Part shown: positions 1 through 14,707 of the stretch, one piece after another
Numbering within the stretch: position 1 is the stretch's first letter
How the letters are laid out: each line of letters starts with the position of its first letter
From: a virus
IMG/VR virus record: IMGVR_UViG_3300035145_002507
Span: 1-22,209 of that record
Length of the DNA: 22,209 nucleotides
Reading direction: 5' to 3' (one strand)
The notes under the pieces: model-generated
Databases searched by the model: none
Seen by the model: the letters and a program-made list of their open reading frames with translations, nothing else
What the model was told of the DNA's origin: nothing
Made by a program: the position numbers and the translations under genes

Positions 1-227
1 TGTGTATGTTCTATTGAACGTTAGTATTTAGTGCCACACTTCTGTTGCTAGGCAGTGGCCGCCCCCTTAATTATGCTGCTAGAGCGTAACCAGAAGGTGC
101 AAAGTTATCGTTTGCATTTGTGTTTTGTAAACTTGCCTACCTGTCGAAACCTATTTCGCCCCCATAGTGTTTATGGTGGAGGCGTCCGGTACTGCCCCGG
201 AGTCCAAATACGCTTTGTAACGCTTAC
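1..227 (-). ncRNA. ssrA: tmRNA, circularly permuted two-piece type, probably reaching the left edge
   Basis: tmRNA rescues stalled ribosomes by adding a degradation tag. Read on the minus strand, the acceptor piece comes first (about 227-174) and ends in a CCA (176-174). A short spacer (173-164) follows, then the coding piece from 163. The acceptor stem is 7 bp, GGGGGCG (163-157) with CGCCUCC (184-178), and its third pair is G.U, the alanine identity element. A T-arm-like hairpin TCCGG/CCGGA with a 7-nt loop directly precedes the 3' acceptor strand. The conserved GGTTTCGACAGG lies at 151-140. The tag frame (115-71) reads ANDNFAPSGYALAA then TAA. GUUUAC near the 5' part of the coding piece can pair with GUAAGC at 227-222, a P2-like helix. 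Downstream of the tag, GCCAC/GTGGC complementarity could form a further stem or pseudoknot. The order acceptor-spacer-coding is the alphaproteobacterial permuted arrangement. The exact ends of the mature pieces are not visible, and the coding piece may continue past base 1. Confidence 0.92.
71..115 (-). other. tmRNA tag reading frame (ANDNFAPSGYALAA)
   Basis: Fourteen codons followed by TAA. With the alanine carried by the tmRNA, the appended tag would be A-ANDNFAPSGYALAA. The final ALAA is the classic ClpX/ClpA recognition end. The initial AND(N) part resembles the region that SspB binds in E. coli. It sits at the expected distance downstream of the conserved GGTTTCGAC block. Confidence 0.9.
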
Positions 228-231
228 AGAT

Positions 232-239
232 TATTTATA
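232..239 (-). promoter_or_regulatory. T4-type late promoter for the tmRNA
   Basis: The octamer TATAAATA, a perfect T4 late promoter core, starts immediately after the TAG stop (240-242) of the preceding gene. Initiation 6-7 nt downstream would place the transcript 5' end at about 227-226, just where the tmRNA acceptor piece begins. Confidence 0.65.
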
Positions 240-449
240 CTACCATTTGGGTATATTTGTCAAGTGTTTTTGTGCACGAACTGCATTTAATAGTCTTAAT
301 ACTTTTTGGCTGTTGTCCTTTGGTACCCAGCCGTTTTTTGTTTTAAATTGTTGTTTGCGTTCGTTAAGTTGAGCAAACTCTTGCCCAAGTAGTTTTTCTA
401 AGTATGTTAAATCATCATTACTTAGACTTGCTATTGCTTTACTTACCAT
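240..449 (-). CDS. hypothetical protein, 69 aa
   Basis: A small basic protein that I do not recognise. The start at 449 (MVSKAIASL) is chosen over an in-frame ATG at 503. A GGGAAG Shine-Dalgarno lies 7 nt before it, and the longer version would overlap the upstream gene by 65 nt. With the chosen start the overlap is 11 nt, typical of this genome. The middle is helical and charged (DDLTYLEKLLGQEF, then NERKQQFKTK), with a possible basic C-terminal helix. No signal peptide or membrane segment is seen. Its stop codon abuts the late promoter of the tmRNA gene, so it is the last protein gene before ssrA. It is real by spacing and frame conservation; the function is unknown. Confidence 0.65.
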   Translation of the reverse strand: MVSKAIASLSNDDLTYLEKLLGQEFAQLNERKQQFKTKNGWVPKDNSQKVLRLLNAVRAQKHLTNIPKW

Positions 450-636
450 AAGTTTCTTCCCAAAGTTTCTCAAAGTGTTCTCTACTATATACCATCCGTT
501 CATGATTTCCCCAAAGTCGTTTCATATAAGAGTCGTGTATACTCCATACAGTTTCTTCGTCATAATTGGGATTGATTAGATGGCCTTTTACTGCATAATG
601 CAGTTCGTTTGCGAACTTCCATTGTTCTTGTGTCAT
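439..636 (-). CDS. hypothetical protein, 65 aa
   Basis: A small soluble protein rich in aromatic and charged residues (three Trp in the second half: TVWSIHD, KRLWGN, EKLWEE). No family recognised. A GAGG Shine-Dalgarno lies 6 nt upstream of the ATG. It overlaps the next gene (start 449) by 11 nt, so the two are probably translated together. The 67-nt gap to the AlgH stop holds TGTAAC and GTTACA as inverted arms and a weak TAAATA run, but no convincing promoter or terminator. Confidence 0.65.
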   Translation of the reverse strand: MTQEQWKFANELHYAVKGHLINPNYDEETVWSIHDSYMKRLWGNHERMVYSREHFEKLWEETYGK

Positions 637-703: not shown

Positions 704-1249
704 TTAAAAATTGAGGAATTTTTCTGTTAAATTTTCTGCTGCAGTTTGAATTGCAGTGTCCCACTGCCTAGGTGGTTGAGTGTTCCACATTAAATCGTGA
801 CTGTAAGGACAATTGGTCCAACTACTACGTCCTTGTCGATGTAGTCCAACAATTTCATCTTCTAACTGTCCTGGTCCCCATTGACTGTTGCCAATTATAA
901 TACGCCAGTATTCAGGAAACTGTCCTAAATTAAAAACATTAATAATTGCTTTATCACGAGTAACACTTAATGTATCATTTAATTGTACTGTACTTGGAAT
1001 TTTAAAATCATTTGTATGTAAAACGTATGCATGATTTACTTCTACTGGTCCGCCATAATAAAGAGGAACATTTTTATGTAAACCCATTCCTTTACGTAAG
1101 CGTTCACTAACTTGATTATCAAGTTGTCTATTAACGACCCAGCCGCTAGCGCCATTCATTGAAAACTCGTTCATATAAATTACAGTCTTATTGAAACTGA
1201 CGTCACGCAATGTTGGCATGCTAACTAAAAATCTGTCTGCTAATTCCAT
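704..1249 (-). CDS. algH: YqgE/AlgH family protein (UPF0301, DUF179)
   Basis: At 181 aa it has the usual length of the family. The N-terminus ADRFLVSMPTLRDVSFNKTV matches the family opening (FL.AMP.L.D..F...V). GASGWVVNR (about residues 33-41) and YYGGPVEVNHAYVLH (about 64-78) match the two central conserved blocks (GA.G...N and GGPV......LH). The family is widespread in Proteobacteria. Its biochemical role is not settled, although AlgH was named as a transcriptional regulator of alginate genes in Pseudomonas. The ATG overlaps the stop of the upstream 53-aa gene (TAATG), so the pair is an operon driven from the promoter at 1432-1460. This looks like a host gene captured by the phage; identity is secure, function in the phage is not. 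Confidence 0.9.
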   Translation of the reverse strand: MELADRFLVSMPTLRDVSFNKTVIYMNEFSMNGASGWVVNRQLDNQVSERLRKGMGLHKNVPLYYGGPVEVNHAYVLHTNDFKIPSTVQLNDTLSVTRDKAIINVFNLGQFPEYWRIIIGNSQWGPGQLEDEIVGLHRQGRSSWTNCPYSHDLMWNTQPPRQWDTAIQTAAENLTEKFLNF

Positions 1250-2925: not shown

Positions 2926-2933
2926 TATTTATC
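2926..2933 (-). promoter_or_regulatory. T4-type late promoter upstream of the PD-(D/E)XK-like gene
   Basis: GATAAATA overlaps the TGA stop (2932-2934) of the GMP reductase gene. Initiation 6 nt downstream leaves a leader of about 17 nt that contains the Shine-Dalgarno. Confidence 0.55.
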
Positions 2934-4128
2934 ACATTTTAGTGGTTGTACTTTCATATACACGATTGAATTGATTGTTAACACGAACGAATGTTGTACA
3001 CTTACTAAGTTGTTTCAATGTAGGTGCACCAACATAAGTGCAAGTACTGCGAATACCACCTAAGATATTTTGTACTGTTGCTGCAACTGCCCCACGATAC
3101 GGAACAAGTACTTCACGTCCTTCACTACTGCGATAATCTTTTAGACCGCCAAAATGTTTAGTATTTGCTGCATCGCTGCTCATACCGTAAAACTTTACAA
3201 ACTTTTTTTCTTCGAACTCAGGACGCATCGGTGGCTCAATTTCGCCAGATTCGATTTGTTCTTGTATCTTTTTTATTTCTTCTTCTGGCATTTCCGGAGG
3301 ATATGGTGGTTGTACTGCTCTGCCGGTTTCATGTGTTTGCTTAATTACTTCGCCGCCGCCTTCATCGTGTCCAGCAAGCATACCACCGAGCATTACAAAG
3401 TCAGCACCAGCAGCAAATGCTTTAGCCACATCACCAGGACAAGTACAGCCGCCGTCAGCAATAATATGACCGCCAAGACCATGAGCGGCGTCTGCGCATT
3501 CAATAACAGCAGATAACTGAGGATAACCAACACCAGTTTGGATACGAGTAGTACAAACACTGCCAGGACCAATACCAACTTTAACAATATCTGCGCCATT
3601 TAAGATTAACTCCTGTGTTTGGTCTGCAGTAACTACATTACCTGCAATGATTACAACATTTGGATAGTCCGTGCGGAATTGTTTTACATAATTTACAAAA
3701 CGTTCGCTATAGCCATTTGCTACATCAATACAAACATATTTCAACCGTTCGCCAACTTCTTTATAAACTATATCAAATTTATTTCTGTCAGAATCTTTAA
3801 TACCGATACTCATTGCAACATTAGAAGTACGATCACTGATACCCTCTCCAAAATATGCAATTAACTCATCGGATGTATATGTTTTTACAAGGCAAGTAAA
3901 CAATCCGCCTGTTGCCATTATATCTGCTTGTTTAAATGTACCAACTCCATCCATGTTACTACCCATAATAGGAATACCATAATAATGAATATTTTCTGAC
4001 TCGTTGCTATAGTTTACAAAATTAAATTCTCTATTTAAGTCTACTTCTTTACGTGAGCCAAGTGTGCTACGCTTCGGACGAATCAAGACATCGCCATAAT
4101 CCAAAAGGATTTCGTTTTCAATTCTCAT
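2932..4128 (-). CDS. guaC: GMP reductase (IMPDH/GMPR family), 398 aa
   Basis: GMP reductase converts GMP to IMP and ammonia with NADPH, linking guanine to adenine nucleotide pools. The catalytic loop [11 protein letters not shown] (185-195, Cys192, Thr194) is followed by [24 protein letters not shown] and [26 protein letters not shown]. These track the GuaC branch of the family rather than IMPDH. The C-terminal YGMSS (314-318), [12 protein letters not shown] and KCTTFVRV also match GuaC. No CBS domains are present, as expected for GMPR. At 398 aa it is longer than the roughly 345 aa of E. coli GuaC, because of a Pro/Glu-rich insert at about 260-309 in the flap region just before FYGMSS. It starts 3 nt after the ClpS stop. 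With NrdAB it points to phage control of nucleotide supply. Confidence 0.92.
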
Positions 4129-4131
4129 TGT

Positions 4132-4431
4132 TTACTCTTCTTCTATTTTAAATGATAGTGGGAAGCCGTTAGTACGACTCACTAGTGTTGCTTCATGAAC
4201 TTTTTGTTCTGCTATTTCGTAAAAATAAATTCCAGCAATACCTTTTCCGTTATTATGCACTTCCATAGTAACTTGTTCTGCTTCTACAGCAGACTTGTTA
4301 AAAATTGCTATTAGTAATTCAATAACAAACTGCATTGGAGTTTGATTATCGTTTAGTAAAATAACTTTGTATTTACTAGGCGTAGTGAAACTAATTGTTG
4401 TATCTTCGGTTACTGAAAGTTGTGTGCTCAT
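4132..4431 (-). CDS. clpS: ClpS, Clp protease adaptor, 99 aa
   Basis: ClpS binds the N-domain of ClpA, delivers N-degron substrates and suppresses ClpAP degradation of ssrA-tagged proteins. The signature is clear: YKVILLNDNQTPMQFVIELL (21-40), then MEVHNNGKG (56-64) and YEIAEQKV (71-78), closing with PLSFKIEE. N-degron pocket residues are present (Asn27, Asp28, Met33 gate, His59). Residue 29 is Asn where the E. coli motif LNDDYTPM has Asp. The extended N-terminal arm (about 17 residues, S/T-rich) is the part that regulates ClpA in other ClpS proteins. A GNRA-capped hairpin lies between it and hsp20. The Shine-Dalgarno is weak (GGAA), so it may depend on read-through from hsp20. Confidence 0.92.
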   Translation of the reverse strand: MSTQLSVTEDTTISFTTPSKYKVILLNDNQTPMQFVIELLIAIFNKSAVEAEQVTMEVHNNGKGIAGIYFYEIAEQKVHEATLVSRTNGFPLSFKIEEE

Positions 4432-4477: not shown

Positions 4478-4912
4478 TTACTTTACATATTCAATTTCAA
4501 TTTTGCGAGGTTTCTTCTCTTCTGGAATAATACGCTCTAGTTCAATATAAAGCATACCGTTTTCCATACGAGCACCATTTACTACTACATCATCCGCAAG
4601 TGTAAATTTACGTTCAAATCTACGCTGTGCAACACCTTTGTGAATATATGTCCATTCAGGCTGTTCCACTTCTTGTGGTGTGTAACGTATCGCTAGTACA
4701 CCGTCTGCGACTTCAATATCTAAATCCTCCAAAGTTACTCCGGCAACTGCCATTTCAATTTGGAAGTTCTCTTCCTGTTGGATAATATTGTAAGGGGGGT
4801 ATCCTGTGTTATTTGAGTGTTCTACATATCTGAACATATCATCAAATATTCTGTCAAATCCAACACTGTGTGGTGTGAGTTTATTCAAGTCGAATGTTGT
4901 TAGTCTTGTCAT
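4478..4912 (-). CDS. Hsp20/alpha-crystallin small heat-shock protein, 144 aa
   Basis: An ATP-independent holdase of the IbpA type. The alpha-crystallin domain spans about 38-128: YPPYNIIQQEENFQIEMAVAG at the start, DLDIEVADGVLAIRY, then RRFERKFTLADDVVVNGARMENGMLYIELER. The oligomerising C-terminal I-x-I is present as IEI (138-140). Length is normal for the family. Small Hsp20 genes are known in T4-like marine phages. It has its own promoter region: a sigma70-like promoter just behind the bS21 stop, a leader of about 175 nt, a late-type octamer inside that leader, and a hairpin able to cover the Shine-Dalgarno AAGGAG. ClpS and GMP reductase follow closely. Confidence 0.94.
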   Translation of the reverse strand: MTRLTTFDLNKLTPHSVGFDRIFDDMFRYVEHSNNTGYPPYNIIQQEENFQIEMAVAGVTLEDLDIEVADGVLAIRYTPQEVEQPEWTYIHKGVAQRRFERKFTLADDVVVNGARMENGMLYIELERIIPEEKKPRKIEIEYVK

Positions 4913-5132: not shown

Positions 5133-5381
5133 CTAGTAGCCGTATTTTTCTTTATTTTTTTCTACTTGTTTTAACCAACGCTTACGAGCCGCTGCTTTTT
5201 CTTTTTTCTTTTTTAAACTAGGCTTTTCATAAAATTCTTTATCACGCATGTCTTTAAATAGACCTTCGTTATTGCACATCTTTTTTAGTTTACGCATTGC
5301 ACGATTAACATCGTTATTACGAACTTCAACATGTAATCCACGTTTAAGTTGCTGTTCTTCATTTGGATTTCTTCTAGGCAT
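5133..5381 (-). CDS. rpsU: ribosomal protein bS21, 82 aa
   Basis: bS21 sits on the 30S platform beside the anti-Shine-Dalgarno end of 16S rRNA. The core VEVRNNDVNRAMRKLKKMCNNEGLFKDMRDKEFYEKPSLKKKKEKAAARKR (about 18-68) follows the bS21 pattern: V...E....ALR.FKR.C...G.....R.REFYEKP...RKRK..A..KR. Compared with the 71-aa E. coli protein it has about 12 extra N-terminal residues (PRRNPNEEQQLK) and a YGY end. Its ATG lies inside the last codons of IF-3 (8-nt overlap), and the Shine-Dalgarno GAGGA is made of IF-3 coding sequence, so the two are translationally coupled. Phage-encoded bS21 is known from marine viruses, including pelagiphages. Confidence 0.94.
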   Translation of the reverse strand: MPRRNPNEEQQLKRGLHVEVRNNDVNRAMRKLKKMCNNEGLFKDMRDKEFYEKPSLKKKKEKAAARKRWLKQVEKNKEKYGY

Positions 5382-5907
5382 TCTTTCCTCTTTTAATTAT
5401 TCCAATTAATCTATTTCCGTTTAAGTTTGGTTTACTATCCCATTCAATTTCATTAAATGAATCAAACACTCTGTTAAGTATTTCAAACCCTATTTGCTTG
5501 TTAGCATTTTCTCTACCACGAAAACGCACCATTAACTTGACTTTGTTTCCTTTAGCAAGAAACTTATCAATATTTTTTAGTTTGGTTTCGAAATCGTGAT
5601 CACCAATTCCTGGGCGAAACTGTATTTCTTTTACTTCAACACGACTTTCACGTTGTCGTTTTGCTGCATCTTTTTCTCGACGCTTTTGCTCGTAGAAGTA
5701 TTTATTCGCATTTAAAATTTTTGCAACAGGAGGGTCGGCTGATTCTGTAATTACTACTAAATCTAATCCTTTACTCTCTGCAATACGTAATGCATCTGTT
5801 TTACTTAATACACCTAATTGGTTTGATTCTTCAATTACTCGCAGTGTATTAAATTTAATTTCGCCATTTATCAATGGCTTTGGTTCTGGTTTGTTAAACT
5901 TGCGCAT
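5374..5907 (-). CDS. infC: translation initiation factor IF-3, 177 aa
   Basis: IF-3 binds the 30S subunit, keeps 50S away and checks start codon and initiator tRNA. It is essentially full length (E. coli has 180 aa). The N-domain (about 11-75) contains PLINGEIKFNTLRVIEESNQ, LGVLSKTDALRIAESKGLDL and ADPPVAKILN. A charged linker helix spans 72-92. The C-domain begins VKEIQFRPGIGDHDFETK (92-109) and includes KVKLMVRFRGRE (122-133) and QIGFEILNRV. The start is ambiguous. The ATG at 5907 (MRKFNK) has only GCAGGT before it and is preferred. An in-frame GTG at 5919 lacks any Shine-Dalgarno. A strong AAGGAG-ATG just upstream drives a different frame (see the short ORF at 5894-5938). No promoter is seen, so transcription comes from upstream genes. 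Confidence 0.94.
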   Translation of the reverse strand: MRKFNKPEPKPLINGEIKFNTLRVIEESNQLGVLSKTDALRIAESKGLDLVVITESADPPVAKILNANKYFYEQKRREKDAAKRQRESRVEVKEIQFRPGIGDHDFETKLKNIDKFLAKGNKVKLMVRFRGRENANKQIGFEILNRVFDSFNEIEWDSKPNLNGNRLIGIIKRGKNA

Positions 5908-5938
5908 TTTTACCTGCACTTGGTATGTTCGATGTCAT
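5894..5938 (-). other. short ORF overlapping the IF-3 start (possible leader peptide or frameshifted N-terminus)
   Basis: ATG at 5938 with an excellent AAGGAG 6 nt before it encodes MTSNIPSAGKNAQV and stops at 5894, beyond the IF-3 ATG at 5907. IF-3 lies in the +1 frame. One base fewer in the AAAAA run would fuse this start to IF-3. It could couple IF-3 translation to a leader, be a programmed +1 shift, or mark a homopolymer error. Confidence 0.45.
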
Positions 5939-6373: not shown

Positions 6374-8422
6374 TTATTCCTCTTTAAAAGGTTTTGTTGG
6401 GGCTAGTTTACCTGTATAACCGTCAGGCCAAATTTCACGTCGAAGTTTAAGTTCTTCTTTAGTTAATTCTTTATCTGATCTACTATCAGTATACGGGTTA
6501 TAGTTATCTTTGTCAACTTCTTTTGGTTGTAATATTTCTTTACTACTATCTTCTTTAAAGTCGCTATAACTTTGTGTAGGTTCATTGACCTTTAATTCTG
6601 GTGTCAATACTAGTGGATCACCAGTTGTTTCTTCAATTTCTGCTTCTTCCCATTTACTTGTTACTGGCTCTGGCTTAGGTTCAGGCTTTGGATCAGATTT
6701 CTTTTTTTTAGGAGATGGAGCAGGACGTGGATTATCTTCACGTCTCCATTCAAAGATATACTGTGCTGCAATTAGTAGTGCAACTGCTAGTGGATCAAAT
6801 ACAAATATAATAATAAGTATTACCCAACGTACTGCATCTTCTAATACATCTCTATCTGCATCTTCGTATATAAATTCTGCTAGATATTTTACAGGTCCTA
6901 CTTCTGCTTCTAATTTACGTGCTTCTGCTTGTAATGCAAATTTACGGTTTGTAATTGTATCTATTTCATCGTTTGCTGATTTAATACGAGCAGTTTGTTC
7001 ATCAATAATTGAATCTAAATCAACATCTTCTCCAATTTGGATTTCGGCACGTAAACGCTCAATAACATTTTGTGCTTGTGCAATTTCGTCTTCTGCTAAT
7101 TGACGCAATCTAGCAATTTCGGTACGTGCTGCAGTAATTATTGCATTATCTGCATTACGTAAATCGGTAATAGTATCTTGTGCTATACTACGAGATTCTC
7201 TGTTAGCAGGAATGTCTGTATCTAGTACTGCATCGATTTTTGCTTGTATGTTGTCACGCTGTGACTGTAAACTGCTGGCTGCATCTGTTCTAATGCGATC
7301 AATTGTATCCAACAATCCTTGCTTGCGATCCTGTACTGCTTCAGTTTGATCACCACGTAAACTTGTTATAAGACCTGTAAGTCTATCACGTTCTTGTGCG
7401 ATAACTGATTGTGCTTGAGCACGTAGTTCTGTTTCTTGTGCTTGTAAACTTGCAATACGATCCTGTTGTGCTGTTACCCATGCTTCTAATGCTCTACGTG
7501 TATTGCCTCCAAACAAACCATCGCTGGTAACACCAATTACAGCCTGTCCTTCACGTATTTTGTCACGCTCTCTACTTTGTAGTTTGTTTGTAGTTACAAC
7601 AATTGATTCTTCAATTGCAGCAATTTGTGCTTTAAGTGTGTCAACTGCACTGTAGTCCGGTTGTAGTTCTGCAATACGTGCTTCATATGCTGCAGCCTGT
7701 TCATCTAATCTAGCAATGTCTGCATCTAGTTGTGCAATTTGATCTATATAAGGCTGTACTTGTTCTTCAACACTTGCTACATTTGTATTAGAAAGTTCTG
7801 TTCTATACTGTTCAACTAATCCATTTAAACGATCTAGTTCGGTATCCAAACTTTGAATTTCATCTTCGTAAACTGCAATGCGTCCTAGTAATGCTGTTTC
7901 TTGTGCACTAATAATGCCTTGCTGTTCTTCAATACTAGGCTGACGTCTTGTATATGCACTGTCAATACGTTCTTGTTCACGATCAATTTTTTCTTGAATA
8001 CCTACATCTTTTTTATCAGCATCTTCTTCTGCTTTTACAATACGATTTTCTGCACGTTGTATAATTTCACGTTGGCGCTCAACTTCTTCGTCCATACGTG
8101 CTATTTGTGCTACTTGTTCTTGTGCCGCTGCTGTTTGTTCAATATGCGCTTTTGATAAGAAACCAAAAATACCCATACTTGTAATAAACATAAGAACTAG
8201 TACGGCTGTACCTAAATACAATCGCATCCACCAACGTGCTCTACTCCAATAACGGTGTAACCAAACAGCCGTTACTAGTTTACCAATTTCTAATGCGCCA
8301 CCCATAATAATAATTGGAATGGCTGCAGCCGCAAAAATAGCAACTAGTCCAGCAACACTGTAATATATTGCAACCGCACTAATTGTAAGGGCTATTAAGA
8401 GTGTAAGTAAACCAAAAAACAT
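6374..8422 (-). CDS. membrane-anchored coiled-coil protein with a peptidoglycan-binding-like motif, 682 aa
   Basis: The N-terminus has three likely membrane helices (about 2-22, 23-45 and 68-89). A long coiled-coil region follows (about 92-290 and 318-510), dense in E/Q/R/A heptads. A fourth membrane helix lies at about 532-557 (VILIIIFVFDPLAVALLIAAQ). The tail (560-682) is proline/lysine-rich (PRPAPSPKKKKSDPKPEPKPEP) then acidic. Within the coiled coil, residues 291-315 (EGQAVIGVTSDGLFGGNTRRAL EAW, written here in two parts) resemble the DG.FG..T..A...W core of a PG_binding_1 domain, but only one short unit is present. The likely topology puts the coiled coil across the membrane from the tail. 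Candidate roles are envelope spanning during lysis, cell-surface remodelling or superinfection exclusion. It is flanked by an SNase-like gene (2-nt gap) and a hypothetical gene. Family not named. Confidence 0.8.
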   Translation of the reverse strand: MFFGLLTLLIALTISAVAIYYSVAGLVAIFAAAAIPIIIMGGALEIGKLVTAVWLHRYWSRARWWMRLYLGTAVLVLMFITSMGIFGFLSKAHIEQTAAAQEQVAQIARMDEEVERQREIIQRAENRIVKAEEDADKKDVGIQEKIDREQERIDSAYTRRQPSIEEQQGIISAQETALLGRIAVYEDEIQSLDTELDRLNGLVEQYRTELSNTNVASVEEQVQPYIDQIAQLDADIARLDEQAAAYEARIAELQPDYSAVDTLKAQIAAIEESIVVTTNKLQSRERDKIREGQAVIGVTSDGLFGGNTRRALEAWVTAQQDRIASLQAQETELRAQAQSVIAQERDRLTGLITSLRGDQTEAVQDRKQGLLDTIDRIRTDAASSLQSQRDNIQAKIDAVLDTDIPANRESRSIAQDTITDLRNADNAIITAARTEIARLRQLAEDEIAQAQNVIERLRAEIQIGEDVDLDSIIDEQTARIKSANDEIDTITNRKFALQAEARKLEAEVGPVKYLAEFIYEDADRDVLEDAVRWVILIIIFVFDPLAVALLIAAQYIFEWRREDNPRPAPSPKKKKSDPKPEPKPEPVTSKWEEAEIEETTGDPLVLTPELKVNEPTQSYSDFKEDSSKEILQPKEVDKDNYNPYTDSRSDKELTKEELKLRREIWPDGYTGKLAPTKPFKEE

Positions 8423-8775: not shown

Positions 8776-9465
8776 TTACTCCTTGTTACCTGGCTTTTGA
8801 CTTGCTAGCCATTTTTTAGCCGCTGGCATACGAGGAGGAGTTTCTAAAAATCTATGTAAATCTTTTTGTATTTCATTAAAATTCTTTGCTCTGCTAGGAT
8901 CTTCTAAACCGCCGCTATTATCAACTACTGAAAATTTAGAACCACCGAATACTTGTTGGAATGCCATTATATTTTGTTGCACATCATTCCACATCTTTTC
9001 AACAACTTTTGGATCTAAACTTCTAGGTCTTTGTAAGTTACGATCTTGTGCTACATCCAAACTAGTGTTAACAAACAACATCATTGTTTCATAACCTAGT
9101 TCTTTCAGCATGTCGTTTGTTTTTGAAACTTTAGCAACATCTTTACCTGTGCCATCAATGATTAAACCTAAACGTCCATCTAAATGACTATCTTGCTTGC
9201 GCTTGGTAATTTCTTTAGCACGGTTACGTATTTCTTGTCCTTGTGGCGAAAAAATAGTCTCAGGATCTAACTCCAAGTCTTGTTTTTTCATCATATATTC
9301 ATATATTTCGTCACTGTTAATAGTACGAAGGCCGGTGCCTCTAAGTAGTTTACCAGCCACAAACGACTTTCCACTACCAGGGCCACCAGCCATAAACACT
9401 GCTTTAAAAATGTGAGGGTCGTTTGGACCTTCTTCGATAGGTTGTACTACTTCATAAATTTTCAT
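8776..9465 (-). CDS. P-loop kinase/zeta-toxin-like ATPase, 229 aa
   Basis: Walker A AGGPGSGKS at 26-34 is followed by a helix and INSDEIYEYMMK (50-60), as in zeta-toxin and polynucleotide-kinase-like proteins. The Walker B-like strand LGLIIDGTG covers 99-107 (Asp104). An Arg-rich lid RNLQRPRSL lies around residues 147-155. The fold fits a small-molecule or nucleic-acid kinase that uses ATP. The substrate cannot be told from sequence: candidates are UDP-sugars (zeta toxin), RNA/DNA 5' ends (Pnk) or nucleosides. No phosphatase domain is attached, so it is not a full T4 Pnkp. No antitoxin-like gene lies next to it. The late octamer CATAAATA stands 5 nt before the ATG and no Shine-Dalgarno exists, so its late mRNA would be leaderless. 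Confidence 0.8.
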   Translation of the reverse strand: MKIYEVVQPIEEGPNDPHIFKAVFMAGGPGSGKSFVAGKLLRGTGLRTINSDEIYEYMMKKQDLELDPETIFSPQGQEIRNRAKEITKRKQDSHLDGRLGLIIDGTGKDVAKVSKTNDMLKELGYETMMLFVNTSLDVAQDRNLQRPRSLDPKVVEKMWNDVQQNIMAFQQVFGGSKFSVVDNSGGLEDPSRAKNFNEIQKDLHRFLETPPRMPAAKKWLASQKPGNKE

Positions 9466-9470
9466 ACATA

Positions 9471-9478
9471 TATTTATG
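9471..9478 (-). promoter_or_regulatory. T4-type late promoter giving a leaderless mRNA for the P-loop kinase
   Basis: CATAAATA, then exactly 5 nt, then ATG. If the octamer occupies -13 to -6 as in T4, initiation falls on the A of the start codon. Confidence 0.6.
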
Positions 9479-9489
9479 CAAATATGAAG

Positions 9490-9993
9490 TTAATCTGCAC
9501 GATAAAACTTGTGTACTCCTATTGTGCCAATAAATGTCATTTTACGTGCCCAACTAGGCTTTACATAGTTAGCATGATAATGTGTTGCACCTTCAGTTAA
9601 CCCACGAAAATCTTCAAACTTCATAATACGCCAAGCAAGTGTTTGTGCACTTACCCAAGCGTCTTGATCTGCAGGCACATCTGCTTTTCCGTCACAATAC
9701 CAACTAAATTGACACTTATTACGAATCATATTTCCGTTAGCATCTATACGTCCTTGCTTAACAACTTCGCATACTGTATTAGGATAACGACTGTCACGTA
9801 CACGATTTAACACAACATCACTTACACCAATCTGATCAGCCATGCTAGATCCACGTGCTTCATAGTAGATGTTTAATGCCATGCAGTATGTTTCGGGAAA
9901 ATGTTCTTCGCTGTAACCAGCAAACGTTTGTTCTGTTGCGTGTACACTTGTTGTAAACATAACCGCAACAATGCTCAGTAGAAGTCGTTTCAT
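9490..9993 (-). CDS. SleB-like cell wall hydrolase with signal peptide, 167 aa
   Basis: Hydrolase_2 (SleB/CwlJ) type lytic enzyme. MKRLLLSIVAVMFTTSVHA is a clean signal peptide with cleavage probably after A19. The catalytic domain contains CMALNIYYEARGSSMADQIGV, with the conserved Glu of YYEARG as the likely catalytic residue. VVLNRVRD, KCQFSWYCDGK and GATHYHANYVKPSWARKM follow, ending IGVHKFYRAD, all diagnostic of the family. The start at 9993 is chosen over the in-frame ATG at 10005: GAGG stands 6 nt before it, and the signal peptide then begins with MKR. Secretion through Sec suggests an endolysin that acts from the periplasm, or one released by the signal itself. It follows the 73-aa gene and shares its promoter. 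No holin is evident beside it. Confidence 0.9.
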   Translation of the reverse strand: MKRLLLSIVAVMFTTSVHATEQTFAGYSEEHFPETYCMALNIYYEARGSSMADQIGVSDVVLNRVRDSRYPNTVCEVVKQGRIDANGNMIRNKCQFSWYCDGKADVPADQDAWVSAQTLAWRIMKFEDFRGLTEGATHYHANYVKPSWARKMTFIGTIGVHKFYRAD

Positions 9994-10020
9994 CTTCTGC
10001 CTCATTTTTTTTTGGATTGA

Positions 10021-10242
10021 TTATAACTGTCCAAACCTGATTACTTTACGGACAGCACCTCGGTCATCGAGAAGTTTAACTTCGCCGTCTTTAACTTGTC
10101 CTTGTTGTGTCAAGCCATGACGATCTTTTACTTTATTCCGCATGTGTTGGATCGCTGCATTTTTAGATCCAAACAACTCAAATTCTTTCTTAACACTTCC
10201 GTGTGCATTATACTCAATAGTTTGAATTTCAAATGTTGCCAT
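10021..10242 (-). CDS. hypothetical protein, 73 aa
   Basis: MATFEIQTIEYNAHGSVKKEFELFGSKNAAIQHMRNKV and so on: a short beta-alpha-beta-beta protein with a central basic helix and a C-terminal strand pair (GEVKLLDDRGAVRKVIRFG). Not recognised. AGGAG lies 8 nt before the ATG, and a complete sigma70-like promoter stands at 10267-10295. It is the first gene of a two-gene unit with the SleB hydrolase 27 nt downstream, so co-expression with lysis is possible, but the promoter class suggests early expression. Confidence 0.72.
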   Translation of the reverse strand: MATFEIQTIEYNAHGSVKKEFELFGSKNAAIQHMRNKVKDRHGLTQQGQVKDGEVKLLDDRGAVRKVIRFGQL

Positions 10243-10266
10243 AAAAATAACTCCTAATACACACTT

Positions 10267-10295
10267 AATATAGTACGTTTGTTTACAAATGTCAA
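10267..10295 (-). promoter_or_regulatory. sigma70-like promoter before the 73-aa gene and SleB hydrolase
   Basis: TTGACA (10290-10295), a 17-bp spacer and TATATT (10267-10272). The -35 starts a few bases after the stop codon of the previous gene (10300-10302). Confidence 0.8.
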
Positions 10296-10299
10296 GCGA

Positions 10300-10602
10300 T
10301 TACCAATCTTTTTTCAGACCTTCTTGTTCGTTCCATTCGTATCCTGCATAGTATGCATCAATTTGATCTTGTGACATCATACTACGTTCTACCTTTGCAC
10401 TAGTACCAGTACCTTCTACATAAAAGTGAGGATGTGGTGACCTGCCATAATAACTATCAGCACTACCACGATCAAACGGACCACCATGTCGCAAAAGTTC
10501 ATTACTGCTTTCGAAGTCAAGATCATATTTTTTACCTTTATATTCAAAGTATTCTGGCTGTGTAACTTTTGAAGCAATTGTAATTGGCAACTCACCCGAC
10601 AT
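10300..10602 (-). CDS. hypothetical protein with GGPxDRGxADSYYGR motif, 100 aa
   Basis: Residues about 40-61 read GGPFDRGSADSYYGRSPHPH. I recall this sort of motif (GGP.DRG.AD.YY.R....PH) from small proteins of many T4-like phages and some bacterial genomes, where no function is assigned. A beta hairpin YFEYKGKKYDLDFE precedes it and an acidic C-terminus (YAGYEWNEQEGLKKDW) follows. The ATG overlaps the stop of the 121-aa gene by 1 nt, with GGAGG 8 nt before it. It is likely co-translated with its upstream partner from the promoter at 10997-11025. Confidence 0.72.
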   Translation of the reverse strand: MSGELPITIASKVTQPEYFEYKGKKYDLDFESSNELLRHGGPFDRGSADSYYGRSPHPHFYVEGTGTSAKVERSMMSQDQIDAYYAGYEWNEQEGLKKDW

Positions 10603-10967
10603 TATTCTGCCTCCGCATCTGTGTCTGGAGTTAGTTTTTCAAATCCAATCATTGCAACACGAAACTTGTCGGCACCAATGACCATTATGTCTCCCATTGA
10701 AGTAGAACGAAGACCCATCTTCTTACCGCCAACATCGTGCAAGTCTGCTAGCACTGTAACGTTCTCATTGTAATCACCGTTGATGTGTGTTGTGCCGTCG
10801 GGCATTTCAAAAAACTCTTCTTTAATGCTCCACGAACCCATAATGTTATTAGTCCAACGATAAGCATAAGACATTGCATCTTCTGGAGGACATTCAAACG
10901 GAACCTCAACTACCGCTACTGTGTTTGCTTCTTCTTCGAATGCTGTATGAATTACTGTTACTTCCAT
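10602..10967 (-). CDS. hypothetical acidic protein, 121 aa
   Basis: It opens with strand and helix (VTVIHTAFEEEANTVAVVEVPFECPPEDAMSYAYRWTNN), continues with GSWSIKEEFFEMPDGTTHINGDYNENV, and ends with a strongly acidic tail. The later part (GKKMGLRSTSMGDIMVIGADKFRVAMIGFEKL) resembles a short beta-barrel segment in which a gene product, defined as promiscuous in phages (RSTSVGD.M....), recurs from memory in T4-like genomes. The family name is not known to me. AGGAG-type Shine-Dalgarno present. A sigma70-like promoter sits directly upstream, sharing a 24-nt element with the promoter at 11583-11611. Confidence 0.7.
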   Translation of the reverse strand: MEVTVIHTAFEEEANTVAVVEVPFECPPEDAMSYAYRWTNNIMGSWSIKEEFFEMPDGTTHINGDYNENVTVLADLHDVGGKKMGLRSTSMGDIMVIGADKFRVAMIGFEKLTPDTDAEAE

Positions 10968-10980
10968 TTTAGTCTCCTAT

Positions 10981-11004
10981 TAACGCTTACATATATAATA
11001 TAAG
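10981..11004 (-). repeat. 24-nt promoter/leader repeat, copy 1
   Basis: Identical over 24 nt to 11567-11590. It covers the -10 box and the first transcribed bases (TATATT followed by ATATATGTAAGCGTTA on the minus strand). Confidence 0.85.
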
Positions 11005-11025
11005 ATGTCTCGATGTGTTTTTCAA
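10997..11025 (-). promoter_or_regulatory. sigma70-like promoter for the 121-aa/100-aa gene pair
   Basis: TTGAAA (11020-11025), a 17-bp spacer and TATATT (10997-11002). The -35 overlaps the TGA stop (11022-11024) of the preceding gene. Confidence 0.75.
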
Positions 11026-11294
11026 GAGTTGATTTGAACTTTTTTTACAAAAGTATCTTTTAGTGCTTTTTCTGCAACACCTGATGCTAGCACTGTATCA
11101 CGCATCAAACCTTTTGAAATAGTGTATGTACCATCTTCTTCTTGGTCAATATTATAGTGTGTTGCATCTGGAGTGCGTGTGTATAACATAATTTGCAAAC
11201 CAGTAGGAGTACTATAAGAACTGGTTCTGCCATAATCAAAATGATCAAAGCCTTGCGATTTAAGTATCTCGTTAATCTTAGTACCCATGTTCAT
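11022..11294 (-). CDS. hypothetical protein, 90 aa
   Basis: MNMGTKINEILKSQGFDHFDYGRTSSYSTPTGLQ and so on: an N-terminal amphipathic helix, then a beta-rich middle (LQIMLYTRTPDATHYNIDQEEDGTYTISKG) and a C-terminal helix with basic end (EKALKDTFVKKVQINS). Not recognised. AAGGA lies 8 nt before the ATG at 11294; MGTK at 11288 is a possible alternative start. It overlaps the 41-aa gene by 17 nt and is the last of three coupled small genes transcribed from the promoter at 11583-11611. Confidence 0.68.
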   Translation of the reverse strand: MNMGTKINEILKSQGFDHFDYGRTSSYSTPTGLQIMLYTRTPDATHYNIDQEEDGTYTISKGLMRDTVLASGVAEKALKDTFVKKVQINS

Positions 11295-11403
11295 TGTATT
11301 CTTCCTTTAGTGCGTTCCAAAATGTTTCGGGAATTACGTAATAGCCTTGTGCAGCACGTGCTGCACAATATGCTTTGTATGTCGGATAACTAACTGCTAA
11401 CAT
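11278..11403 (-). CDS. small hypothetical protein, 41 aa
   Basis: A short gene missed by length cut-offs. It reads MLAVSYPTYKAYCAARAAQG, then YYVIPETFWNALKEEYNEHGY. The ATG is fused to the stop of the 49-aa gene as TAATG, and the coding end overlaps the next gene by 17 nt, whose Shine-Dalgarno (AAGGA) it contains. The tight coupling on both sides is the main reason to believe it is translated. The Tyr/Ala-rich N-terminal helix and a YYVIPxxFW turn look like a compact helix-turn-helix-size fold, but no family is recognised. Confidence 0.62.
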   Translation of the reverse strand: MLAVSYPTYKAYCAARAAQGYYVIPETFWNALKEEYNEHGY

Positions 11404-11552
11404 TAAAGTTGCTCACATGCTGCTTCACCTTCGGACAGGTCTACTACAACAACATTATCTATTACAGGATACTGTGTAATAAAGTCGGACGCTGACTGAA
11501 AGTCGGTGAAAAAGAAACTTTTTTGACGGTCGAAATCTACTACTGCAAACAT
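11403..11552 (-). CDS. small hypothetical protein, 49 aa
   Basis: MFAVVDFDRQKSFFFTDFQ, then SASDFITQYPVIDNVVVVDLSEGEAACEQL. The start at 11552 is preferred to the in-frame ATG at 11645 because AAGGAG stands 6-7 nt before it, and because the promoter at 11583-11611 lies inside what would be the longer reading. The alternation of strands (VFAVVDF, NVVVVDL) around one helix suggests a small alpha/beta domain. The fold recalls fragments of FMN- or NAD-linked proteins, without any motif. It heads a three-gene coupled unit. Confidence 0.68.
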   Translation of the reverse strand: MFAVVDFDRQKSFFFTDFQSASDFITQYPVIDNVVVVDLSEGEAACEQL

Positions 11553-11566
11553 TATTAACTCCTTTT

Positions 11567-11590
11567 TAACGCTTACATATATAATATAAG
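11567..11590 (-). repeat. 24-nt promoter/leader repeat, copy 2
   Basis: Identical to 10981-11004, covering the -10 box and initial transcribed region. The 11-mer TGTAAGCGTTA within it also occurs at the tmRNA 5' end (218-228). Confidence 0.85.
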
Positions 11591-11611
11591 TGCCAAAAGG
11601 GCTAAAGTCAA
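11583..11611 (-). promoter_or_regulatory. sigma70-like promoter for the 49/41/90-aa unit
   Basis: TTGACT (11606-11611), a 17-bp spacer and TATATT (11583-11588). The -35 lies in the loop of the overlapping terminator hairpin at 11595-11622. Confidence 0.75.
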
Positions 11612-11622
11612 CCCCTAGCCCT
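11595..11622 (-). terminator. rho-independent terminator overlapping a promoter
   Basis: AGGGCTA and TAGCCCT form a 7-bp stem with an 11-nt loop, followed by TTTT (minus strand). It ends the 89-aa/180-aa unit. The loop contains the -35 hexamer of the next promoter. Confidence 0.7.
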
Positions 11623-11638
11623 AATTTAGTTTCTTTAG

Positions 11639-11663
11639 TTTTCAATGACTTATAATTTTTTTA
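11639..11663 (-). repeat. 25-nt gene-end repeat, copy 1
   Basis: Identical over 25 nt to 12599-12623. On the minus strand it starts with the TAA stop codon of the 180-aa gene, then an A-run and TTATAAGTCATTG, ending AAAA, and leads towards the terminator. Confidence 0.85.
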
Positions 11664-12203
11664 CAAAAACATTTCAAAATGATCTTCAATTGTCATGGTT
11701 GTGTTGACATCTTTACCAGTGTATGTTTCAAATAAGCCTTCTGTATTAAAGCAATAGTTGTAACGTTCCCAGAAGTTGTACACATCGGGCGTCTTACTAG
11801 CCCAACCTGCTTTACGCAACTTGATATCGTTTTCTTCACTTAGTGTGCACGTAGGCACGTTACAGGCTTGCTGTGGTGTAATATGTCCTGCTAATAGCAA
11901 GTCACGTACTGTGCTGTTTGGAATCATATGTTCAAACACACTTTTGCCTGTGATGTTGCGTTCACGATAATGGCTACCAATGTTTTCTTTGATACAGTAA
12001 CCGTGATACCGACGCAAGTGATGATCAATTGTGTCACGTATTAGTCGACGTGTTTGTACATCGTCGTTGCTGTTACGATACGCTTCAACAGCAATTTCCA
12101 ACTGTGCGTAGGTATATGCGGCTGTTGCCGCATATGTTTCTGATCCACGTGTTGCTTTTGTATAAACAGGTTGAATAAAGTTTTCTAGTGCTTCACGTAA
12201 CAT
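11661..12203 (-). CDS. hypothetical protein, possible divergent HNH-type nuclease, 180 aa
   Basis: The N-terminal half is helical (AAYTYAQLEIAVEAYRNSNDDVQTRRLIRDTIDHHLRRYHGYC). The centre reads SVFEHMIPNSTVRDLLLAGHITPQQACNVPTC, where E91-H92-M-I-P resembles the (D/E)H-x-h-P strand of HNH/His-Me nucleases. C114 and C119 could then be metal ligands, and LSEENDIKLRKAG would follow as the N-containing helix. I do recall related unnamed proteins in marine T4-like phages, but I cannot confirm nuclease activity. It overlaps the preceding 89-aa gene by 1 nt (TAATG), with AAGG as Shine-Dalgarno, and ends in the 25-nt repeat and terminator. Confidence 0.7.
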   Translation of the reverse strand: MLREALENFIQPVYTKATRGSETYAATAAYTYAQLEIAVEAYRNSNDDVQTRRLIRDTIDHHLRRYHGYCIKENIGSHYRERNITGKSVFEHMIPNSTVRDLLLAGHITPQQACNVPTCTLSEENDIKLRKAGWASKTPDVYNFWERYNYCFNTEGLFETYTGKDVNTTMTIEDHFEMFL

Positions 12204-13802: not shown

Positions 13803-14333
13803 TTAATTATTTTCTAAATCAAGCCATTGATACCAACTTGGATGCCTGACTTGTATTTCCATTTGTTTGCGTTTACGCACAAGTTCAAAGTATCCAGGTC
13901 TATAAGGCTTCGTTTTAGGTCTCCATTCTGGACCTACTTTATTACCTTTGCGACTGTTGCAAGGGTTACATGCTGTTACACTGTTTTCCCATGTAGTTTG
14001 TCCACCTCTACTTAACGGATGTACATGGTCTAATGTCAATGACGATTTAGCAAATTTGTTTTCACAATACTGGCAAACATACATGTCTCTCATATACAGG
14101 TTTGCTCGTGAAAAACGCACCTGTCTGGTGCGTCTTAGATAATCCTTTAACATAATCACAGCGGGGACTTTTGTCTCCCAGGAGGGACTCCGGACCATCC
14201 AATCATCATACCACTCCATTACTGTACACTTATCATGATACATATACATGATAGCCTCTTTCCATTGTACAACGCTAAGTGGGAGAAAGTTTACGGGTTG
14301 CCCATCGGCATTTAAAACAAGTGTATCGCTCAT
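13803..14333 (-). CDS. HNH endonuclease, 176 aa
   Basis: The HNH core spans 85-133. CxxC at C87/C90 (YVCQYC) and a second CxxC at C122/C125 (ACNPCN) form a structural zinc site. D102-H103 with H105 (LDHVHPLSRGG) form the catalytic beta strand, and ENSV and NSRKG complete the finger. The N-terminal 80 residues (VLNADGQPVNFLPLSVVQWKEA, then YLRRTRQVRFSRANLYMRD) match a widespread stand-alone HNH family that occurs in many bacteria and phages. It is not necessarily a homing enzyme, as the gene is not inserted in another gene. AATAAATA stands exactly 5 nt before the ATG and no Shine-Dalgarno is present, so a leaderless late mRNA is predicted. Confidence 0.92.
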   Translation of the reverse strand: MSDTLVLNADGQPVNFLPLSVVQWKEAIMYMYHDKCTVMEWYDDWMVRSPSWETKVPAVIMLKDYLRRTRQVRFSRANLYMRDMYVCQYCENKFAKSSLTLDHVHPLSRGGQTTWENSVTACNPCNSRKGNKVGPEWRPKTKPYRPGYFELVRKRKQMEIQVRHPSWYQWLDLENN

Positions 14334-14338
14334 ACTAA

Positions 14339-14346
14339 TATTTATT
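14339..14346 (-). promoter_or_regulatory. late-type octamer giving a leaderless mRNA for the HNH gene
   Basis: AATAAATA, 5-nt gap, ATG. It overlaps the final codons/stop of the 121-aa gene (stop at 14342-14344). Confidence 0.5.
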
Positions 14347-14707
14347 TTTCGTCATCAAAGAAGGCGCTTAAATCGGGTTCATATATAAATTCTTCACCGT
14401 CTTCAAGTTCAACCTCAAACAGATCTTCTGTATCAAAATTATAACTTACATTATATACTTGTTCTGTATCCAGTGTTTGGATATCTCTCCAAAGTCTGCC
14501 AAGTGCTTCATCTGTCCAGCCATGATTTGCAGGTAGTTCAACATCTTGAATTACATTTAAGAATCCACACCAACGATGGTACTGATTTACATCATCGCTG
14601 TTGCAAGGATTGTATCCTTCTTTGATCATGTCTTTTAATAGTGCACGATCTTTAATGCCACTCTTATGGTATGCACGTTCCAGTGCAAAGTCAATTACAT
14701 TATCCAT
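14342..14707 (-). CDS. hypothetical acidic protein, 121 aa
   Basis: MDNVIDFALERAYHKSGIKDRALLKDMIKEGYNP and so on. The VIDFALERA.....GI opening is often seen in small phage proteins of unknown role. A central helix contains two cysteines (NPCNSDDVNQYHRWCGF). The C-terminus is strongly acidic with alternating strands (NFDTEDLFEVELEDGEEFIYEPDLSAFFDDEK), which could mimic nucleic acid. The ATG overlaps the 96-aa gene stop (TAATG). The Shine-Dalgarno is weak (AGAGTG), consistent with re-initiation by coupling. Confidence 0.7.
   Translation of the reverse strand: MDNVIDFALERAYHKSGIKDRALLKDMIKEGYNPCNSDDVNQYHRWCGFLNVIQDVELPANHGWTDEALGRLWRDIQTLDTEQVYNVSYNFDTEDLFEVELEDGEEFIYEPDLSAFFDDEK

Follow-up and report, generated by a model that had tools for sequence, protein, structure and literature searches.

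A compact two-piece tmRNA behind a putative late promoter in a phage lineage that also encodes ClpS

Introduction

A tmRNA releases stalled ribosomes and labels the unfinished protein for degradation; in phages such RNAs have so far been known as isolated curiosities, and their role, assumed to be an early one, was a guess. A 22,209-base IMG/VR viral record of a marine-type bacteriophage (the whole stretch analysed here, hereafter the window) carries at one end an unusually small tmRNA gene split into two pieces, which raises the questions of whether such a gene belongs to the phage and works, when in infection it would be transcribed, and what would become of the proteins that it tags. A sequence-only reading of the window named only one-piece tmRNAs as known in some large phages; this view is out of date, since two-piece phage tmRNAs were published in 2022, with 53 structures, 50 of them from aquatic phages (PMC9004378). 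Two-piece phage tmRNA is thus already known, and what is new is a compact subclass, a putative late promoter at a fixed position and a conserved block of Clp and translation genes. The open papers searched yielded neither the compact form lacking the pseudoknot PK1 nor the conserved late promoter, nor a phage lineage that combines tmRNA with ClpS, ClpP and ClpA.

A complete permuted tmRNA gene at the end of the window

The sole Rfam match in the window is a permuted tmRNA, complete at 30-228 on the minus strand. RF04321 (tmRNA_permuted) matched 228-71 with 79.6 bits (cut-off 47) and RF01849 (alpha_tmRNA) matched 267-30 with 76.9 bits and E 1.3e-19 (cut-off 50), in both cases over the whole model. 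A second search of the viral record reproduced the permuted tmRNA match with E 3.2e-23, and among the alpha, beta and cyano clade models only RF01849 was reported above its cut-off. The sequence-only reading had proposed a two-piece permuted tmRNA of alphaproteobacterial type, to be checked with the Rfam alphaproteobacterial model, and these full-length matches bear it out. It had placed the element at 1-227; the tmRNA does lie there, but the boundaries had to be redrawn, with gene and promoter occupying 30-239. The parts are as follows.

232-239, minus strand: putative T4-type late promoter TATAAATA, 59 nt upstream of TCCACCA and directly 3' of the stop of the ORF at 240-503
174-228, minus strand: tmRNA acceptor piece, the 5' part of the transcript, with P2 strand 228-222, T-arm and acceptor 3' strand
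164-173, minus strand: IVS spacer TAAACACTAT, 10 nt, read from the sequence and expected to be lost from the mature molecule
30-163, minus strand: tmRNA coding piece, with G1 at 163, acceptor 5' strand, TTCGAC, P2 strand 132-126, tag and 3' pseudoknot
71-115, minus strand: tag frame ANDNFAPSGYALAA plus TAA (tag 115-74, stop 73-71), coded by GCAAACGATAACTTTGCACCTTCTGGTTACGCTCTAGCAGCA
33-64, minus strand: 3' pseudoknot PK2, with S1 64-61/53-50, S2 59-55/37-33 and loop AGCAACAGAA, supported by covariation

The acceptor piece (about 227 to 174) precedes the coding piece and terminates in CGCCTCCACCA, with its CCA end at 174, and the coding piece begins with GGGGGCGAAATAGGTTTCGAC at G1 = 163, GGGGGCG running from 163; its 3' end near 30 is taken from the RF01849 match. 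The pieces can pair through a 7-bp acceptor stem with G3.U70 and a 7-bp P2, and a short lead separates the second P2 strand (132-126) from the tag, ANDNFAPSGYALAA, which is short, in frame and provided with a degradable hydrophobic end. The CCA end and G3.U70, the alanine identity element, are invariant in 14 relatives. Every part named in the earlier reading (acceptor piece with CCA, short spacer, coding piece, tag frame, 7-bp stem and G3.U70) was found. Alphaproteobacterial ssrA (RF01849; Caulobacter, Pelagibacter) shares with the window the order of the pieces, G3.U70, a AATGCAAACGA-like resume region and a PK2 with a CAACAGAA loop, whereas bacterial ssrA controls differ in a distance from G1 to the tag of at least 82 nt, in the absence of TATAAATA at this place (0/103) and in the rarity of [FY]ALAA endings.

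A compact form without PK1

The distance from G1 to the tag is 48 nt in the window, which is one of 20 phage loci with 47-50 nt. Applied to bacteria, the same pattern collected 105 genes, each with at least 82 nt and none compact. The compact form is without about 35 nt between acceptor stem and tag, the place where PK1 lies, and no PK1 is present between the tRNA-like domain and the tag in the window tmRNA, as in about 20 phage loci. PK1 is important in E. coli tmRNA. RF04321 pairs the tRNA domain only, and PK1 is usual but not demanded by that model. By its sequence, the window tmRNA is a member of a phage-only compact subclass.

ARAGORN called no gene in the window because the compact form falls in its blind spot: it detects 38/52 normal-length phage and 101/105 bacterial permuted tmRNA genes, but only one of the 20 compact ones. 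Censuses of phage tmRNAs based on ARAGORN are therefore too low. Huge phages were reported to carry IF3, S21 and tmRNA as takeover genes (PMC7162821); the tmRNAs in that study were called with ARAGORN, which overlooks compact permuted genes, and 'Clp' is absent from that text.

One close relative of the window phage (G004; NrdA 87%, YqgE 91%) carries at 13907 a tmRNA whose tag and PK2 match those of the window at nearly every base. It is nevertheless of normal length, with an insert of PK1 length, and its acceptor stem, T-arm and spacer differ from those of the window. This mosaic suggests that tmRNA halves seem to be exchanged between phages.

Conservation of structure and tag

Scored from the CAACAGAA anchor, since gaps shifted the PK2 region in the MAFFT alignment, 73 of the 74 distinct phage loci have a PK2 stem of at least 5 bp, whereas shuffling the partners among loci left 22 on average and 33 at most. 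Paired changes thus preserve the stem beyond chance, as if under selection. P2 co-varies in the compact clade (GUAAGC/GUUUAC, GUGGAC/GUCUAC, GAAGAU/GUCUUC), and its shuffle test, weak because of few distinct types, gave 6.8 pairs versus 5.9 in shuffled sets (maximum 6.8). Tag variation among relatives is mostly synonymous or stays inside the [FY]ALAA pattern, and most of the compact clade conserves the tag as ANDNFAPS-x-[FY]ALAA. Such endings occur in 27 of 47 distinct phage tags versus 4 of 56 bacterial ones, an excess to be read as a tendency and not as a test, because related sequences are not independent. Taken with the linked clpS, the [FY]ALAA endings argue, at the level of sequence, for the importance of degradation. 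Four other permuted tmRNA loci (L143, L144, L156 and L158) have an apparent tag of 24 residues, GNDKTSFTTELTVEGLFEDQLLAA, identified by eye and far above the usual length.

A putative late promoter at a fixed position

The late promoter proposed earlier for this locus gained support from a comparison of phage and bacterial loci. With its copy at 239-232, the window is one of a class: of 123 phage permuted tmRNAs, 58 have a TATAAATA that begins 57-75 nt before TCCACCA, when the contigs themselves would lead one to expect 0.3, and of 103 bacterial loci none has it. Within the window TATAAATA is not over-represented (2 observed, 2.5 expected), so its weight as a promoter comes from its fixed position and not from its count there. 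In the 133-kb relative G012, 9 of 15 copies lie at most 60 nt upstream of a gene start, compared with 12.6% for shuffled octamers of the same composition, and the genes so preceded include the tail-tube gene. From the spacing of T4 late promoters, the transcript is predicted to start near 227.

Late sigma factors of the gp55 type are present in PA5oct, Atu_ph07, RaK2, GAP32 and XaC1, of which PA5oct is among the jumbo phages nearest to G012 by terminase, and on permuted-tmRNA phage contigs such as G035 (48% to PA5oct) and L072. Queries with Melnitz gp55 and PA5oct-type gp55 found none in the available parts of G012, G017 and G027; the smaller contigs among these are without other core genes and look incomplete.

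The published two-piece tmRNAs of Melnitz EXVC043M/044M are among the closest known counterparts. They are likewise permuted and of alpha type; the acceptor piece comes first, its end lies 70 nt downstream of TATAAATA, and the core is similar (44% of the 300-base window query covered at 83% identity). They differ from the window in a 142-nt spacer, in a tag at the usual distance, in the presence of a glutamine riboswitch, and in having no ClpP or ClpA match and no annotated ClpS. The authors inferred early tmRNA expression from a predicted sigma70 promoter and retained intergenic promoters only (PMC9004378), which is probably why the gene was called early: in MZ577097, TATAAATA lies at 46000-46007, inside the annotated tmRNA feature 45984-46436. 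Judged as a sequence match, this copy contradicts the early-expression inference. A putative late promoter at a near-constant distance in dozens of phage loci makes the timing testable and argues against the published early model.

A conserved block with Clp and translation genes

Upstream of the tmRNA on the same strand lie genes for translation and protein quality control.

240-503, minus strand: ORF of 87 aa, no family, adjoining the tmRNA in the syntenic clade
439-636, minus strand: ORF of 65 aa, no family, conserved in synteny
704-1249, minus strand: YqgE/AlgH (DUF179) family protein (Pfam E 1.2e-29)
2932-4128, minus strand: GMP reductase (NCBIfam NF003470, 502.9 bits, above cut-off)
4132-4431, minus strand: ClpS, ClpAP adaptor (Pfam E 3.2e-27; best PDB match 3dnj, E 9.3e-19)
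4478-4912, minus strand: Hsp20 small heat-shock chaperone, IbpA-like (Pfam E 1.5e-17)
5133-5381, minus strand: ribosomal protein bS21 (Pfam E 2.5e-18; TIGR00030 above cut-off)
5374-5919, minus strand: translation initiation factor IF-3, both domains (Pfam E 3e-27 and 5.1e-23; TIGR00168 above cut-off)

ClpS is above the Pfam cut-off and below the NCBIfam equivalog cut-offs. Aligned to 3dnj (Caulobacter ClpS), it retains ND..TPM and VH, residues lining the N-degron pocket. The window also codes for a class Ia ribonucleotide reductase, a glutaredoxin, a large tail-like protein and an HNH nuclease. Elsewhere in it, a zeta-toxin/AAA_33-type P-loop kinase gene (8776-9465) adjoins nuclease-like (SNase) and cell-wall-hydrolase genes, and 6374-8422 encodes a 682-residue protein, hydrophobic in segments close to each terminus and coiled-coil-like over a long central part, which is conserved in the lineage and matched no family above cut-off.

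Where a contig encodes a related ClpS, its gene order agrees with that of the window over up to 15-20 kb. The block common to them runs IF3-bS21-Hsp20-ClpS-GMP reductase-(DUF1127)-YqgE-two small ORFs-tmRNA, with the tmRNA at its end. The tmRNA was found in 15 of 26 ClpS contigs, and nearly all the others end before or near its expected place; the clear exception is G021. Contigs of this clade that extend well beyond YqgE and the small ORFs carry the tmRNA. ClpP is encoded in 9 of 21 related records and ClpA in two large contigs, G012 and G017; a relative's ClpA (744 aa) aligns over its full length to E. coli ClpA (E 1.7e-204) and is below the curated equivalog cut-off. None of the 21 records encodes SmpB, and the phage tmRNA would therefore depend on host SmpB. 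G012 itself carries ClpA, DnaJ, ClpP and PhoH (8993-11227, 11288-12052, 36646-37233 and 13933-14658) along with ClpS, Hsp20 and tmRNA.

Among large contigs, ClpS accompanies a compact-type tmRNA core in 6 of 8, versus 0 of 12 with other permuted tmRNAs, and in six isolated ClpS phage groups (jumbo phages) no tmRNA scored above cut-off. PA5oct shares the Hsp-ClpS neighbours and Vibrio phage 2.275.O the IF3-S21-ClpS-like neighbours of the window, and Atu_ph07, in which ClpA, ClpP and ClpS together are already known (PMC6102473), has these three with DnaJ; in none of these phages did a tmRNA exceed the cut-off. By these counts the tie between ClpS and tmRNA holds in one lineage, not generally.

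A general ClpS-tmRNA partnership was considered and rejected on the six isolated ClpS groups and the 12 contigs with other tmRNAs. As a separate observation, one ClpS contig (L148, on G018) has a permuted tmRNA of beta type, not alpha type, and two ClpP genes, possibly an independent pairing.

Phage origin and the question of the host

The claim that the tmRNA is phage-borne holds: the record is viral, it codes for ribonucleotide reductase, tail-like and HNH proteins, and genes for terminase, sheath and tail tube are found in syntenic relatives. In G012 these are joined by a helicase gene (tail tube and neck were named by eye), its terminase being nearest to those of the jumbo phages PA5oct (57%) and Phosso (54%). 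A 29-base core of the tmRNA occurs in no genome among 84,980 species, a 32-base version of it occurs in 60 viral contigs, and no bacterial tmRNA found came closer than 65% identity. When phage and bacterial cores were placed in one tree, 69 phage sequences grouped together before any bacterial sequence joined them; with about 150 columns and a set of loci collected by two patterns, this tree is supportive only. Phage-only tmRNA clades imply that the gene was kept through phage evolution.

The alphaproteobacterial host that had been proposed from the tmRNA type does not follow from these data, given a nearest bacterial tmRNA at 65% and a core confined to viral contigs in these searches. Moreover, Melnitz has an alpha-type tmRNA in an OM43 host, so that tmRNA type can differ from the host. 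Sequence likeness leans towards Alphaproteobacteria for DUF1127, for the tmRNA type and for ClpS with its match to 3dnj, and towards Pseudomonas phages for the G012 terminase. Assignment of a host by the tmRNA sequence was tried and rejected, no close bacterial relative having been found.

Proposed function and its alternatives

We consider it probable that the window encodes a functional two-piece tmRNA that is made late in infection, works with host SmpB and marks proteins for destruction by Clp proteases. A gp55-type late sigma factor, as in T4, would direct host RNA polymerase to TATAAATA (239-232), and the transcript would start near 227, at the first P2 pairs. By analogy with Caulobacter, tRNA-processing enzymes would excise the 10-nt spacer, and the two pieces would stay together through the 7-bp acceptor stem and P2, whose pairing the sequence and covariation show. 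The observed G3.U70 would make the molecule a substrate of alanyl-tRNA synthetase. With host SmpB and EF-Tu it would enter ribosomes halted by cut mRNAs or by nonstop mRNAs and append (A)ANDNFAPSGYALAA, whose ...ALAA end would send the product to ClpXP or ClpAP. Phage ClpS, in relatives also ClpP and ClpA, would set what the protease takes, and together with phage IF-3, bS21 and Hsp20 the system may sustain phage translation and protein quality during structural-protein synthesis. Against this reading count the absence of PK1, the dependence on host SmpB, the lack of a late sigma factor match in the available parts of the closest relatives and the isolated ClpS jumbo phages with no tmRNA above cut-off; in place of PK1, P2 and the short single-stranded lead are presumably enough.

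ClpS reportedly alters the substrates of ClpAP and turns it away from ssrA-tagged proteins (Dougan and co-workers, 2002, cited in PMC6102473). For this reason, phage ClpS could either keep ClpAP off the tagged proteins, which would then fall to ClpXP, or redirect the protease elsewhere. We put forward more tentatively, as a possibility that we do not favour, that late tmRNA with its own tag, ClpS, ClpP and, in some members, ClpA form the lineage's own relay from rescue to proteolysis. If true, only SmpB, EF-Tu and AlaRS would be needed from the host, and both late ribosome rescue and the choice of destroyed proteins would be under phage control. The association of the tmRNA with ClpS, ClpP and ClpA suggests phage control over the removal of proteins, besides translation, in some cases.

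The missing PK1 would also fit an RNA that only frees ribosomes, a stripped recycling form with the tag and its Clp neighbours as bystanders; the isolated ClpS phages without tmRNA and the permuted-tmRNA phages outside the lineage without ClpS (0/12) are in line with it. We regard this as unlikely, since the tag has remained a coding frame in which the [FY]ALAA end recurs, ClpS is linked in 6 of 8 large compact-group contigs and ClpP is often present. The reduced body and the lack of a phage SmpB could instead indicate a decoy that blocks a host response by tying up host SmpB, AlaRS or ribosomes or by displacing host tmRNA, but a decoy would not need the resume site, in-frame tag, stop and other functional parts, all of which are conserved, and we give it very little credence. 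Slighter still are the chances of the early weapon proposed for Melnitz, in which host proteins are tagged early and amino acids recycled: in its favour is the inference that the Melnitz authors drew from a predicted sigma70 promoter (PMC9004378), and against it is the putative late promoter directly before the tmRNA, here and in Melnitz. We rate just as low a functionless relic or misbinned host gene. The position at the very end of a fragment contig and the compact body would be compatible with such an origin, but the same gene order recurs on many viral contigs, the structure co-varies, and the core is absent from the 84,980 species genomes and falls in a phage-only clade. The functional, late-made tmRNA is the reading that we retain.

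Spacers of phage tmRNAs

The spacer between TCCACCA and GGGG is 10 nt in the window and 3-376 nt among relatives. In a survey of 108 distinct phage permuted tmRNA spacers, the ends may pair as a closing helix (e.g., TAAACACA...TGTGTTTA), of at least 6 bp in 54 of 87, and some spacers of 78-80 nt resemble structured RNA and had no Rfam match of their own. Long spacers carry small ORFs on the sense strand (L126, L200, L209, L203, L138/L155, L228, L224 and Melnitz L002), often behind a purine-rich site like a ribosome-binding site; most of these ORFs stop at the TGA within the conserved spacer end ...TGTGTTTATGAT. On this pattern, the phage tmRNA spacer looks like a cargo slot. The L200 and L209 spacers encode homologous membrane-like peptides of 51 residues, with 31 base differences between them, 4 of which are at second positions.
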